Below, piece after piece: positions 2,897-14,435 of a stretch of 64,000 nucleotides of DNA. The position numbers and the translations under genes were made by a program. Source of the stretch: Bacteroidales bacterium. Its GTDB lineage: Bacteria > Bacteroidota > Bacteroidia > Bacteroidales > UBA932. The stretch lies in contig SUYL01000002.1 in NCBI GenBank assembly GCA_015060445.1, positions 62,001 to 126,000 on the forward strand, read 5' to 3'. The number at the start of each line of letters is the position of its first letter. Position 1 is the stretch's first letter. The notes beneath the pieces were generated by a model. That model worked only from the letters and a program-made list of their open reading frames with translations, made no database searches and was not told the DNA's origin.

Positions 2897-3568
2897 ATGG
2901 AAAACAATAACACTTGCTGGACAATGCCGCGCATTGGCGACCAGGCCCCTGAGTTCAGGGCAATGACTACACACGGAAAACTCAATTTCCCACAGGATTA
3001 TGCAGGAAAATGGAAAATACTTTTCAGCCATCCTGCAGATTTTACACCGGTATGTACAACAGAGTTCATCTCTTTTGCAAAGATGCAGAAGGAGTTTGAG
3101 GAACTCAATACACAGTTGGTGGGTCTCTCAGTGGATAGCCTCAGCAGCCATATTGCATGGGTTAGGAACATTGAGGAGAAAATTGAGTGGGACGGCAATA
3201 AAAATGTGAAGATAGGCTTCCCGATAATTGTAGATTTGAGCAAGGCGGTTTCAAAACTTTACGGTATGATTATGCCGGGAGAGGCCAACAATGCCTGTGT
3301 GAGGGCGGTATTCTTCATTGACCCTGCAGACAAGATACGTGCAATTATCTATTACCCGTTGGTACTTGGCCGCAATTTTGAGGAGATAAAGAGGGTGATT
3401 GTAGGGTTGCAGACTGCAGATAAGCATGATGTTGCCCTCCCTGCAAACTGGACTCCCGGTAAGGAGGTGGTTCTCCATTATCCTACCACCACAGAGGATG
3501 TTGAGAAGAGGTGTGCCGAGGAAGGGATTACCTGCAGCGACTGGTATTTGTGTACCAGGAATTTGTAA
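2897..3568 (+). CDS. Peroxiredoxin (1-Cys/Prx6-like)
   Basis: PADFTPVCTTEF active site; long C-terminal Prx6-type domain. Confidence 0.93.
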   Translation: MENNNTCWTMPRIGDQAPEFRAMTTHGKLNFPQDYAGKWKILFSHPADFTPVCTTEFISFAKMQKEFEELNTQLVGLSVDSLSSHIAWVRNIEEKIEWDGNKNVKIGFPIIVDLSKAVSKLYGMIMPGEANNACVRAVFFIDPADKIRAIIYYPLVLGRNFEEIKRVIVGLQTADKHDVALPANWTPGKEVVLHYPTTTEDVEKRCAEEGITCSDWYLCTRNL

Positions 3569-3635: not shown

Positions 3636-4817
3636 ATGAAAAATTTTGTAAAGACACTTCTTGTATGTGCTGCAGTGTTTGCAGTATCGTGCAGTTCCTC
3701 TGAACAGGAAACTCCGGAAATTCCGTTACAGCCTGAGCCTGATGTTGCACAGGAACTTGATGCCATAATGAAACGTTACAGTGCCGTAGGATTGGCGGTA
3801 GCAGTAGTGGATGAGGGGAAGATTGTTTATGAAAACACCTTGGGCTTTAAGGATCTTGAAGCAAAAACTCCATGGGAGAAAACAGATGTGCTGAGGATTG
3901 CTTCCATTTCAAAGTCTTTTGTTGCAACATCCATCCTTCAACTTGTGGAGCAGGGAAAATTGGGCCTTGATTCAGATGTCTCAGAGATTATGGGATTCGT
4001 TGTAAGGAATCCAAAGTATCCGGAGACTCCAATTACCGTAAGGATGCTGTTGTCGCATACTTCAAGCATGAGTGATGCAAACGGTTATTTCACTTTGGAC
4101 AATCTTAACAGGGAAACTTCCCGAACATGGGAAAAGGCATGGAACGGTTATGAGCCCGGGAGCAAATACCAGTATTGTAATTTGGGCTATAATACTCTTG
4201 GTGCCATTGTTGAGAAAGTGAGTGGAGAGAGGTTTGACAAATATGTCTCAGACCATATTTTAAAACCGCTTGGCGTTTATGCGCACCATAATGTGCATGA
4301 ACTGGATGCCTCAAGATTTGTAGGTATCTATACTTTCAATGCTTCCAACAGCTCCTATAAGAAATCTGATGCCTATCCTTCAATAGAAGATGCATTTGCA
4401 GATTACAGGATGGGATACTCTACCCCTGTTTTTTCACCAACAGGAGGGCTGAAGATTTCTGTGGGTGGTTTGGCCAAAGTTATGATGATGCATATGAATA
4501 TGGGTACACTTGGTGGAGTAAAAATTTTGACTCCCCAGAGTTGTGAAATGATGCAAAGTGAGATTACCCCTACAAACTATGAGGGGGAACGTTATGGCAT
4601 GGCCCTTCTCCGTACCAATGACCTGCTGGGCGGTCATAGGCTTGTAGGGCACGATGGGCTGGCTTTGGGGGCCCATACCGCAATGTTCTGGCATCCGGAA
4701 CAGAAGTTCGGTTTTGTAATAATGACCAACGGCTGTAATGCCAAAACAGACAAAGTGTTTGCAAATATCCTTTGTGAATCTGCGGAGTGTCTTTATAAGA
4801 ATATCATCAACAGGTAA
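3636..4817 (+). CDS. Serine hydrolase, beta-lactamase family (class C-like), lipoprotein
   Basis: Lipobox-like AVSCSS; SISK (SxxK) and YCNLGYN motifs. Confidence 0.88.
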   Translation: MKNFVKTLLVCAAVFAVSCSSSEQETPEIPLQPEPDVAQELDAIMKRYSAVGLAVAVVDEGKIVYENTLGFKDLEAKTPWEKTDVLRIASISKSFVATSILQLVEQGKLGLDSDVSEIMGFVVRNPKYPETPITVRMLLSHTSSMSDANGYFTLDNLNRETSRTWEKAWNGYEPGSKYQYCNLGYNTLGAIVEKVSGERFDKYVSDHILKPLGVYAHHNVHELDASRFVGIYTFNASNSSYKKSDAYPSIEDAFADYRMGYSTPVFSPTGGLKISVGGLAKVMMMHMNMGTLGGVKILTPQSCEMMQSEITPTNYEGERYGMALLRTNDLLGGHRLVGHDGLALGAHTAMFWHPEQKFGFVIMTNGCNAKTDKVFANILCESAECLYKNIINR

Positions 4818-4985: not shown

Positions 4986-5528
4986 ATGGACAATATAGGC
5001 AAATTGAGAGATGAATGGGGCGACAGGCTGCATCTGTTTGCATATTCATATGTCCATTCTCATGTGGTGGCGGAAGATCTGGTGCAGGATGTGTTTCTGA
5101 AGTTGCTGGAACATAACATTGATATATCTGAATACAACAATATTGGTTCCCTTTTATATACCATCCTGAAGAACAGGTGCCTGGATTACATTAAGCACAA
5201 GATGGTTGAGGAGAATCATATGCAGGATGTGGTTGATGCCAATTATCTTATGGCAAACAGGTATGCATTGGAGGATGAGTCCATTAAGATCATCACCGAC
5301 AATGAAATTCATAAAATTTTAAGGGATGCCATTGCCGCCCTTCCGGATACTACCAGGGATATATTCATTCTCAGCAAATTCAAGGATAAAAAATATCAGG
5401 AGATAGCAGACCTGTACGGGATATCTGCCAGACAGGTGGAGTATCATATTTTCAAGGCTATGTCACTGCTGAAAGAGAGGATGGGCAAATACTATCTTCT
5501 TGTCATTTTCTTTCCGGGGCTTTTCTAG
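4986..5528 (+). CDS. ECF RNA polymerase sigma factor, FecI-like
   Basis: VAEDLVQDVFLKLLEH and PDTTRDIFILSKFKDKKYQEIADLYGISARQVEYHIFKAMSLL; followed by fecR and susC. Confidence 0.92.
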   Translation: MDNIGKLRDEWGDRLHLFAYSYVHSHVVAEDLVQDVFLKLLEHNIDISEYNNIGSLLYTILKNRCLDYIKHKMVEENHMQDVVDANYLMANRYALEDESIKIITDNEIHKILRDAIAALPDTTRDIFILSKFKDKKYQEIADLYGISARQVEYHIFKAMSLLKERMGKYYLLVIFFPGLF

Positions 5529-5579
5529 TCTCATATTCATTTTTTTTGGGATTTTATATTGTATTGTCGTCTTATTATT

Positions 5580-6530
5580 ATGATGATGAGGGAAACTGTT
5601 TTAAAATTTATAGAAAGGAAGGCTTCTGCCCAGGAGCAGAGGGAGGTCCTTGCATGGATAGAGTCCAGTGAGGAGAATCGCAGAGAGTTTGCCAGGCTCA
5701 AGAATTTGAGTGTGGCAATGGATATAATAGCAATGGAGCATAAAGAGAAGAGGAGTTCATTAAAACGCCTCCTTTTCTGGACAGCAAGGGTTGCAGCCAT
5801 CCTGGTTGCCTCTGTTTCTGTATTCCTGTTGGGAGAATATGTGCAGGAACACAAATTCAGGAAGAGGGCATCGGAGCAGTTTACAGAGATTACTGCCCCA
5901 TATGGGGAGGTTCTCCACTTCAATCTTCCCGACGGTTCCAAAGTTATCCTTAACAGCGGGTCCACCCTCAAATTCTCAAAGTTGTTCAATGACGGGAGCA
6001 GGGATGTACAGTTGTCGGGAGAAGGATATTTTGAAGTGAAGAAAGATGATCAGCGTTTTAATGTGGTATATCCTATAGAGAACCCTATTTTTAAATTGAG
6101 TGTATTGGGTACAACTTTCAATATCTCTTCTTATCCCGACAATAAGAATGTAGTTACTACCCTGTATGAAGGGGCAATTGAGATTGAGGACCTGAATACT
6201 CAGGAGAATTTCCGTTTGAAACCCCGATATCAGCACATTTATGAAATGAGTACAGGTGTCTCTACAGTGGAGCCTTTTACAGAGACTTACAGGTGGACAG
6301 ACAAATATGTTGTAGCAAACGGTGAAGACATCTCAACATTTACCAGGAGACTGGAGGATATTTTTAATGTGAAAATCATAATTGACAATGATCTTGTAGG
6401 CAATTGCAGCTACAGCGGTGCCCTTTATGGAGGTTCCCTCCAGCAGATTCTTGACAACATGACTTATGTATCCCCTATAACATACTCAATCAAGGACAGC
6501 GGCAAGACCATCATTATTGAGGCCAAATAA
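5580..6530 (+). CDS. FecR family anti-sigma factor
   Basis: TM segment; FecR core PYGEVLHFNLPDGSKVILNSGSTLKFSKLF; C-terminal DUF4974-like region. Confidence 0.95.
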   Translation: MMMRETVLKFIERKASAQEQREVLAWIESSEENRREFARLKNLSVAMDIIAMEHKEKRSSLKRLLFWTARVAAILVASVSVFLLGEYVQEHKFRKRASEQFTEITAPYGEVLHFNLPDGSKVILNSGSTLKFSKLFNDGSRDVQLSGEGYFEVKKDDQRFNVVYPIENPIFKLSVLGTTFNISSYPDNKNVVTTLYEGAIEIEDLNTQENFRLKPRYQHIYEMSTGVSTVEPFTETYRWTDKYVVANGEDISTFTRRLEDIFNVKIIIDNDLVGNCSYSGALYGGSLQQILDNMTYVSPITYSIKDSGKTIIIEAK

Positions 6531-12362: not shown

Positions 12363-12577
12363 CGAGGTGCGAAGGAAGGATAAATGAAATTTAAACTTAG
12401 GTTAAGTCGGGCAGGCCCTGCAGCCAAAGGATGAGGTTGCGGAGCTTGTTTTTTGTGGTTTGCGGTGAGAGGAGGTGTCTGATACGTTGAAGGTTGTGTT
12501 TGCAGATAGCGTGAGTTTGCAGAAGGAGTTGAGGGCTGTGTGGCCGTGAAATAATTTTTTGGAGGGGTTTCCGCCAA

Positions 12578-12712
12578 GACGATGGCACGCTAAATCTTGT
12601 CTGGGGGTATATGTAGGCGGGGATGAGCGTGCCACTCGTGTGATTTCTTAGCGGGTGGCACGGGAAAGGTGGCTTGAGGGGGCGTACAGACGGGGTTGGG
12701 CGTGCCGTTGTC
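12578..12712. repeat. 135-bp structured element, 5' flank of RAYT-like gene (copy 1)
   Basis: Terminal stem gacgatggcacgc/gcgtgccgttgtc; internal hairpin 12628-12639/12651-12662; aligns without gaps to 13797-13931 (about 85/135 identical by hand). Confidence 0.8.
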
Positions 12713-12870
12713 ATGGCAAGAGGATGGGAGAGCAGGTGGCAAGCGTTAAGAAAATGTTTGTATATCAACAAATTATTTGCAATCTTTGTAGAGACTTCAT
12801 GTGTCCGCCTATATGGCCTGGGTGGAATTGGAGGGAAGGATTTGTATAGGCCAGACATTTCTTTTTTGCG

Positions 12871-13758
12871 GTGGAAAAGATTTTTTTCAATGGGGGAGAT
12901 GAGGCGTTTTATCACGTATGTACTGATGGTGCCTTGTTAGACTGGATGTTCCAGGATGATCGTGATTTTATAGCGGGTGTAAACCGTTCTGGCATTTGCA
13001 CTTTTTTGTCGGGAGCCATACAGGTGTCGTTTATGCTTATGGATAATCATGTCCATTTTGTCCTCAGAGGAACCATGCCTTCCTGTAAGGAATACATTAC
13101 CAAGTTTAAAAATCTCACAGGCAAGTATATTTCTTCCCGATATGGTGTTACCGGGCATATACATGCCTTGCCTACCCAAATCATCAGAATTGATACTCCC
13201 GACAGGTTGTTGGCAACATTGGCTTATCTCGACAGAAATCCGATTGTGGCAGGATGGCACAGGATGCCTGATGAGTACCCATGGGGTGTGTCCAGATTCC
13301 TCTTTAGAACGCAGGAGGATGCAGGGCAATACCGTAGGTTAGATACTTTTCCCAAACGTGAACAGTGGATGTTGTTGGGCACACACCATCAGTTGCCGCA
13401 GGATTGGCTGGTTGACGGCAACGGAATGCTCAACCCACGATGTTTTGTGGATATTCAATTTTTGGAGAGGCTTTACAGGACGCCTGCAAGGTATCTTTAT
13501 TTTCTTTCAAAGAAACTTGAGGGGGAGATGGACAATTATTTTTCATTTGGCTCTCGTACTTTTCTGCCTGATAAGGAGTTGAGGGTAATTGTCTGCAAAC
13601 TTGCCCTTCAGCTTTTTGGAGAATCTGATTTGAGGATGCTCACCGCGAATTCAAGGCTGAAGCTTGCCCGCAAGTTGAGGTATGAGTATGCTTCTTCGGT
13701 TAAACAAATTTCCAGAATGCTCCACATGGATCCGGAGATTCTAAAGGGGTTTGTCTAG
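12871..13758 (+). CDS. RAYT-like transposase (REP-associated tyrosine transposase, Y1_Tnp/HUH family)
   Basis: HUH motif in LMDNHVHFVL; Y1-type LATLAYLDRNPIVAGWHRMPDEYPWGVSRF; C-terminal HTH-like KLRYEYASSVKQISRMLHM. Confidence 0.88.
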   Translation: MEKIFFNGGDEAFYHVCTDGALLDWMFQDDRDFIAGVNRSGICTFLSGAIQVSFMLMDNHVHFVLRGTMPSCKEYITKFKNLTGKYISSRYGVTGHIHALPTQIIRIDTPDRLLATLAYLDRNPIVAGWHRMPDEYPWGVSRFLFRTQEDAGQYRRLDTFPKREQWMLLGTHHQLPQDWLVDGNGMLNPRCFVDIQFLERLYRTPARYLYFLSKKLEGEMDNYFSFGSRTFLPDKELRVIVCKLALQLFGESDLRMLTANSRLKLARKLRYEYASSVKQISRMLHMDPEILKGFV

Positions 13759-13796
13759 GTTGCCGTTCTGCTGTTCCGCCGTACCGCTACCGCTAA

Positions 13797-13931
13797 GACG
13801 ATGGCACGCTTAAAGTATCTTAAGGATGCTTGTGGCGTGGATTTTATGTGCCATTCGTAAGGTTTCTCTACGGGTGGCACGGTGAGTATTGGCTGGAGTG
13901 GGGTGTGGAGGGGATTGGGTGTGCCGTCATC
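13797..13931. repeat. 135-bp structured element, 3' flank of RAYT-like gene (copy 2)
   Basis: Same internal layout and length as 12578-12712; hairpin gtgccattcgt/acgggtggcac at the same offset. Confidence 0.8.
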
Positions 13932-13940
13932 TTGGGGGCG

Positions 13941-14020
13941 GGGGGATTGGGGCTTCGCCATTCCCCATACCGCTGTTGCGGGGGGATTTGGCCTCCGGCA
14001 TTCCCCACCCTCCTCGCCGG
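13941..14020. repeat. Tandem pair of 40-bp hairpin repeats
   Basis: gggggattggggcttcgccattcccca and gggggatttggcctccggcattcccca, 40 bp apart, 23/27 identical in the core. Confidence 0.7.
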
Positions 14021-14168: not shown

Positions 14169-14178
14169 TCCGTTGTTG

Positions 14179-14265
14179 CGGTGAGAGGGGGATTCGAACC
14201 CCCGGTACGGTTACCCGTACGTCAGTTTAGCAAACTGGTGGTTTCAGCCACTCACCCATCTCACC
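14179..14265 (-). tRNA. tRNA-Ser (GCU)
   Basis: Minus strand GGTGAGATGGGTGAGTGGCTGAAACCACCAGTTTGCTAAACTG...GGGGGTTCGAATCCCCCTCTCACCG; anticodon GCT; long variable arm. Confidence 0.97.
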
Positions 14266-14435
14266 TTTCCGCCCAATGGGTATTTGTTTGCACAAACGTT
14301 TTGGGACTGCAAATATAGGTTAAATCTTTGTATTTGCAAATTTTATTTATGGTGCTATAATAAATATGCCCGGGTTATGCGGTTATGTCCGGATGGAATA
14401 TTTTGCAAACTCGGGCAATATTTTCAGGTAGACAG

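Follow-up and report, generated by a model that had tools for sequence, protein, structure and literature searches.

A low-copy, probably REPtron-like unit in Bacteroidales: a RAYT-like gene between two direct tandem-dimer elements

The window, which is the whole stretch of 64,000 nucleotides that was analysed, very probably contains a low-copy REPtron-like unit of Bacteroidales, in which a vertically kept RAYT gene sits between two direct copies of its cognate element and would act in trans on these and on solo copies at other genomic sites. The two elements, upstream element U and downstream element D, are tandem dimers of a 73-nt hairpin unit that is found again in related genomes, with an arm motif that differs between groups of genomes.

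The RAYT gene and its two flanking elements

The gene (12871..13758, + strand) encodes a RAYT-like (TnpA-REP, class 2 TnpAY1) Y1/HUH protein of 295 aa, assigned by the motifs in an alignment of its relatives. The window protein carries NHVH (His60 and His62), Tyr119 and Trp138, and when 40 relatives from whole genomes were aligned, both histidines of NHVH, Tyr119, Asn123 (forming Y-x-x-x-N) and Trp138 proved invariant, which bears out the protein assignment of the initial annotation; the Pro that follows Asn123 in the window protein is missing in some members. On its own, the window protein gave no hit in Pfam and matched the NCBIfam model REP_Tyr_transpos with an E of 0.0064 and 16 bits, far under the cut-off of 80; among the 40 relatives, 33 matched this model at E<=0.01 (best 6.7e-9) and 16 matched Y1_Tnp. 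The C-terminal stretch, conserved in the alignment, appears helix-turn-helix-like, and a search for such a domain in Pfam gave no hit. AlphaFold, run on the single sequence of the window RAYT, returned a pLDDT of 42, and sequence searches of the PDB found no relative.

The initial annotation took RAYTs to be single-copy, a view that does not hold for the window's own genome (G000), which has six divergent RAYT-like genes, the other five being 25-31% identical to the window RAYT, a low similarity of the kind that marks RAYT copies within one genome; some relatives carry twelve. The clade nearest to the window RAYT (E<=1e-60) was found in 13 of the 399 genomes of the family and, own genome aside, in none of the 395 genomes drawn from the order, and a scan of viral contigs brought up distant relatives only. 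Orthologues at the same site, recognized by the tRNA-Ser(gct) and FloA-like genes, are 85% identical in G165, a yak-caecum Bacteroidales MAG, and 67% identical in G164, and in both genomes the orthologous RAYT is flanked by elements of the U/D type. The dN/dS of the RAYT is 0.10-0.17, which shows that purifying selection maintains the gene. The RAYTs of two other loci, L085 and L110, have in-frame insertions of ~45-60 residues at the same position, after the HUH/Tyr core; insertions derived from an inserted element have been reported for subclass 2.4.

The flanking sequences had been described as two collinear 135-bp copies of about 85/135 identity, and an exact count gave the same figure, with 12578-12712 and 13797-13931 aligning free of gaps at 85/135. 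A gapped alignment widened the homology to ~146 nt per copy (about 12572-12717 and 13791-13936), so that 135 bp proved too short a length for an element that starts at a CCAAG foot. By sequence alignment, U (about 12572..12717, + strand) is a 146-nt tandem dimer of a 73-nt unit, with arms at 12581-12590, 12627-12636, 12654-12663 and 12700-12709 and feet at 12574-12580 (CCAAGAC) and 12710-12716 (GTCATGG). The 146-nt D (about 13791..13936, + strand) lies in the same orientation as U, begins ~31 nt past the RAYT stop codon and has its arms at 13800-13809, 13846-13855, 13873-13882 and 13919-13928. Since the element begins at the CCAAG foot, the terminal stem noticed earlier comprises 17 pairs, one of them mismatched in copy 1, instead of 13; the internal hairpins and the alternative pairing of 12583-12591 with 12626-12634 were all found in the sequence. 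The 700-nt flanks of the RAYT gene gave a direct-repeat score of 104, against 28 for inverted repeats and 30 for shuffled flanks, and the other 34 of the 35 window ORFs of at least 200 aa, which served as controls, had direct flank scores of 35.5 or less.

An internal repeat was first hinted at by the runner-up match to copy 1 within the window, 64/135 identical, which is copy 1 against itself at a displacement of 73 nt. Twenty-three copies of the element form a nearly ungapped 146-column alignment, and the best internal self-match lies at a 73-nt shift in 23/23 of them, which shows the element to be a 73-nt unit repeated once in tandem. This unit consists of an arm, a ~37-nt spacer and an inverted arm, and is present twice in every copy (23/23). 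One motif recurs in all four arms and the element ends in a CAAG...CTTG foot, the GTAG/GTGG foot of REPs being absent from the alignments. The multi-stem form proposed earlier is thus more fittingly seen as two 73-nt hairpin units in tandem; with four arms of one motif, a nested fold is not the sole option.

The predicted RNA folds of U and D are strong (-71.5 and -52.7 kcal/mol), and a search of Rfam over the elements gave no match. The earlier claim of covariation had been drawn from the two window copies, between which no pair is altered on both sides and only wobble-compatible single changes and mismatches occur; covariation as such stands, the compensatory changes emerging once homologues are added. 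Across the 23 copies, nested pairing holds for 90.1% of cells and 13 pairs show a change in both partners, sliding the partners lowers pairing to 29-45%, and the covariation score of the nested fold exceeds 500/500 shuffles, a test in which related sequences may beat shuffles without any structure. As judged from these alignments, the compensatory changes support the pairing. Side-by-side pairing holds in 89.5% of cells, with 283/345 Watson-Crick pairs versus 290/345 in the nested fold, and so the two folds fit equally well and are indistinguishable by sequence, given that all four arms carry one motif. At three loci of other RAYT families (L018, L022 and L041), the outer and inner stems are unrelated in sequence, which favours nesting at those loci.

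Other features border the unit. A conserved stretch containing GTCGGGCAGGCCCTGCAG adjoins it as a single copy at 12390-12454 of the window; in L069 it occurs both before and after the RAYT (1584-1634 and 2958-3020) and singly at the RAYT-less site of G154 (L071 about 3740-3800), and a search for 12390-12454 as a genomic repeat yielded one exact and one 2-mismatch match, so it is not one. Two copies of a palindrome-rich tandem repeat of ~40 nt (GGGGGATTGAGGCTCCGCCATTCCCCACTCCGCTGCC) occupy 13938-14007 of the window, and G154 has a long array of the same repeat in the same place (L071 about 3990-4400). The tRNA-Ser segment by the RAYT is inverted relative to the FloA-like gene in G164 and G158 (L073 about 5480-5620 versus window 14178-14348).

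Dispersed copies and the arm-motif switch

BLAST of U against its own genome returned U and D only, the solo copy being too diverged; this third, RAYT-less copy, at C55, was caught by a gapped pattern. A covariance model trained on seven copies found three copies in G000 and otherwise noise, the score of the solo copy being partly circular as it was one of those seven. The same model found nine copies in G165, six in G164, five in G158, one in G154 and none in three further genomes; where the RAYT lies in G155 it found a monomer of 73 nt. Solo copies number one in G000, seven in G165 and four in G164, and the five copies of G158 are present although no RAYT was found in that assembly, which is 89% complete. 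The tRNA-Ser site contains one element but no RAYT in G158; in G154 it lacks both and is occupied by unrelated sequence. Most of the element-carrying genomes are metagenome-type assemblies of 84-89% completeness, and so the copy numbers are lower bounds and the absence of the RAYT from G158 is uncertain. Neither a mobility event nor a clean empty/filled site was seen among the genomes compared. The weaker hits in G154 belong to other RAYT types, being L044-like and L110-like elements, so more than one family has solo copies.

Other genomic copies, orthologous loci with the element and covariation, whose absence the initial annotation had named as counting against it, were thus all found. Of the two identities it offered, that of cognate REP/MITE-like elements is supported by the orthologous flanks, the solo copies and the common arm motif, and that of a structured RNA is disfavoured for U. 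Beside the solo element of G000 (L129 about 1689-1720) lies a piece of an element that resembles the one of another RAYT family, the L044-like TTCCTGCAATTC...GAATTGCAGGAAC, and beside the solo element of G154 (L142) lies a whole copy of the same L044-like element, so that solo elements of two RAYT families cluster in both genomes.

The arms are of the GGCAC type in 12/12 copies of G000, G165 and G154 and of the GGCGC type in 11/11 copies of G164 and G158, and wherever a RAYT is present the arm type is that of its flanks. Column 132 of the alignment is correspondingly T in 12/12 copies of the first group and C in 11/11 of the second (Fisher 7e-7 for column against genome group, ignoring relatedness); its paired columns change accordingly except in two cases in G158, and arm 3 conforms less strictly. 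Such a genome-specific motif could partly reflect common ancestry of the copies within a genome. A comparison independent of the copies within one genome is offered by the solo copy lying 3' of the same 336-aa gene, which is GGCAC in G000, G165 and G154 and GGCGC in G164. Between G164 and the other three, the adjoining gene has 0.10-0.18 synonymous differences per site, whereas the solo elements are ~30% different; the G164 copy was therefore either replaced (by conversion or a new insertion) or inserted independently into the same stretch, and under either origin its arms match the flanks of the resident RAYT. In G164, the likeness of U to D is 93% and exceeds that of either one to its orthologue, which likewise speaks for homogenisation. 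The switch from GGCAC to GGCGC across the copies of one genome amounts to a natural experiment on RAYT specificity, and a simple cleavage assay can cross-test two orthologues of the enzyme, 67% identical, against the two classes of motif.

Paired direct elements are not confined to this locus. They were found with a score of at least 50 at 40 of 60 related RAYT loci, a comparison in which shuffled flanks top out at 37, and around none of the 34 control genes (the other window ORFs of at least 200 aa). The element sequences differ between loci and are alike within one (154/161 at L044, 183/198 at L051), at several loci a single motif recurs in four arms whose orientation alternates, and the window's closest relatives keep the outermost CAAG...CTTG even at loci such as L109, L085 and L110, whose arms are wholly different. 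Long, C-terminally extended RAYTs have been reported without REP-like partners (PMC6006769); here, in gut Bacteroidales, clear partners accompany long RAYTs at two thirds of the examined loci.

Predicted promoter and leader of the RAYT gene

Between U and the gene lies a promoter-like sequence, TTTG-N20-AATCTTTG (12757..12788, + strand), which we take to resemble the Bacteroidetes promoter consensus and whose spacing is identical in the orthologues L069 and L084. As this predicted promoter sits 3' of U, U would lie outside the predicted RAYT mRNA, and so a DNA-level role appears likelier than an RNA one for the element.

The RAYT mRNA would probably start 3' of U and carry a 5' leader (12804..12855, + strand) that, judging by covariation, can form an H-type pseudoknot, with stem S1 at 12805-12809/12821-12825 and stem S2 at 12814-12819/12848-12853. 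This leader is common to 15 loci (the window, L009, L069, L084, L085, L109, L110, L113, L117, L118, L119 and L121-L124) whose RAYTs are 42-85% identical to that of the window, with the consensus stems CCACC/GGTGG (S1) and GGCCT/AGGCC (S2). Pairing holds in 96.9% of cells, five pairs differ in both partners and all 500 shuffles score lower, counts that lean towards structure since the excision and register of the leader were set by hand. Plain compensatory changes include GGTC/GACC in L124, GCCC/GGGC in L009, CCGCC/GGCGG in L084 and CCACT/AGTGG in L117. Across 71 sources, the leader model scored above 15 bits at RAYT leaders only, all of them training loci or duplicates of these; Rfam gave no match at 12804-12855.

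Two other candidate readings of the leader were rejected: a small upstream ORF (MCPPIWPGWNWREGFV), whose start and frame are lost in L085 and L110 with the stems kept, and a pairing of the leader's CCACC with the start region ATGGTGG, which is lost in L113 and L117. The pseudoknot is possibly autoregulatory and may limit translation; for ISPpu9, a structured 5' UTR of the transposase is reported to regulate it (PMC8450116). RAYTs are the best-known domesticated bacterial transposases, and the covarying leader points to a way in which the RAYT may be held at a low dose. In another RAYT subfamily (L042, L044, L046, L048 and L051), the start codon is directly preceded by another short, conserved leader, ~CGGCCACTAGAGGCGC.

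Proposed mechanism, rival explanations and known systems

On the REPtron-like reading, the RAYT would be a domesticated Y1 HUH endonuclease acting on the flanking copies and on a small solo population. By analogy with IS200/IS605 and REP biochemistry, replication would expose single strands in which the arms fold into hairpins, and we infer that the RAYT would read the arm motif and the foot, nick alongside by means of Tyr119 and move or copy the element at a low rate. Such mobilisation, or conversion, could homogenise the copies of one genome, so that a change of specificity would spread to all of them, and the RAYT gene itself would not multiply. More tentatively, the unit may represent a Bacteroidales-specific RAYT branch with obligate 73+73-nt dimers, a CAAG/CTTG double foot, an enzyme and copies that switch motif together, and expression limited by the pseudoknot. 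No low-copy miniature mobile-element system of the form seen in the window turned up in the open-access papers searched.

A Y1 HUH protein between structured ends of the same orientation, with direct and inverted scores of 104 and 28, is also what an IS200/IS605-type insertion sequence would present, with U and D as its left and right ends and U-RAYT-D transposing as a whole, and the G154 site without the unit would fit this as well. We consider it unlikely, as G000 holds no near-identical second gene next to its five others of 25-31% identity, it is the end elements that are dispersed as solo copies and not the whole unit, and the gene is under purifying selection at the orthologous site in three species; IS200/IS605 enzymes, moreover, have Y-x-x-x-Q where Y-x-x-x-N is found here.

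It is very unlikely that U and D are duplicates of a functional RNA (a small RNA or a structured untranslated region) to which the RAYT is incidental, even with the strong predicted folds and compensatory changes in its favour, given that U lies 5' of the predicted RAYT promoter, that the four arms of all copies shift motif together as a protein site would, that unrelated elements of the same plan accompany different RAYTs, and that Rfam holds no match. The 97% identity of the solo copy between G000 and G165 could also be cited for an RNA, but the neighbouring gene has 0.08 synonymous differences per site between these genomes, so that this identity needs no special constraint. Hardly credible, finally, is that these are independent miniature elements served by another transposase and adjacent to the RAYT by chance: the low copy numbers and the persistence of copies in G158, where no RAYT was found, would agree with it, but G158 is just 89% complete and has one copy at the RAYT site, RAYT-specific paired flanks recur at 40/60 loci in many genera, and a G154 solo copy of the L110 type has GATGCGAAC, as do the flanks of another G154 RAYT.

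The REPtron-like reading is closest to the systems of E. coli, Pseudomonas and Stenotrophomonas (PMC2817692, PMC3116915, PMC8266576, PMC8049555), in which inverted pairs of REPs, the REPINs, are mobilised by RAYTs that are single-copy and inherited vertically (PMC8049555, PMC3116915) and the GTAG of the REP contributes to recognition and to the choice of cleavage site (PMC8266576). Shared with them are the Y1 HUH protein with Y-x-x-x-N, RAYT-specific flanking palindromic elements with solo copies elsewhere, vertical inheritance, and inverted arms around a variable spacer. The present system differs in having CAAG...CTTG instead of GTAG, 1-9 copies per carrying genome instead of ~100 or more, an element that is always a 73+73-nt dimer, a protein of ~295 aa instead of ~165, and several divergent RAYTs per genome. 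It would work in a REPtron-like manner and, lacking GTAG and having few copies, dimeric elements and a longer protein, is a variant and not a canonical member.

TIRYTs are RAYT-like genes with long flanking inverted repeats and no REPs (PMC3733652), most of which fall in TnpAY1 subclass 2.1, where no REP-like structure was found (PMC6006769). They resemble the window's unit in their long RAYT-like proteins with NHVH and a C-terminal extension and in long flanking repeats, some self-complementary, with few or no dispersed copies; the flanks here are direct (score 104) where theirs are inverted, and consist of four-arm dimers accompanied by solo copies that coevolve in trans. TnpAY1 subclass 2.6 of Bacteroidetes, described as having 'atypical secondary structures' (PMC6006769) and compared here by description only, shares the phylum, non-GTAG structures by the gene and copies elsewhere, and has a median protein length of 179 aa versus 295 aa here.
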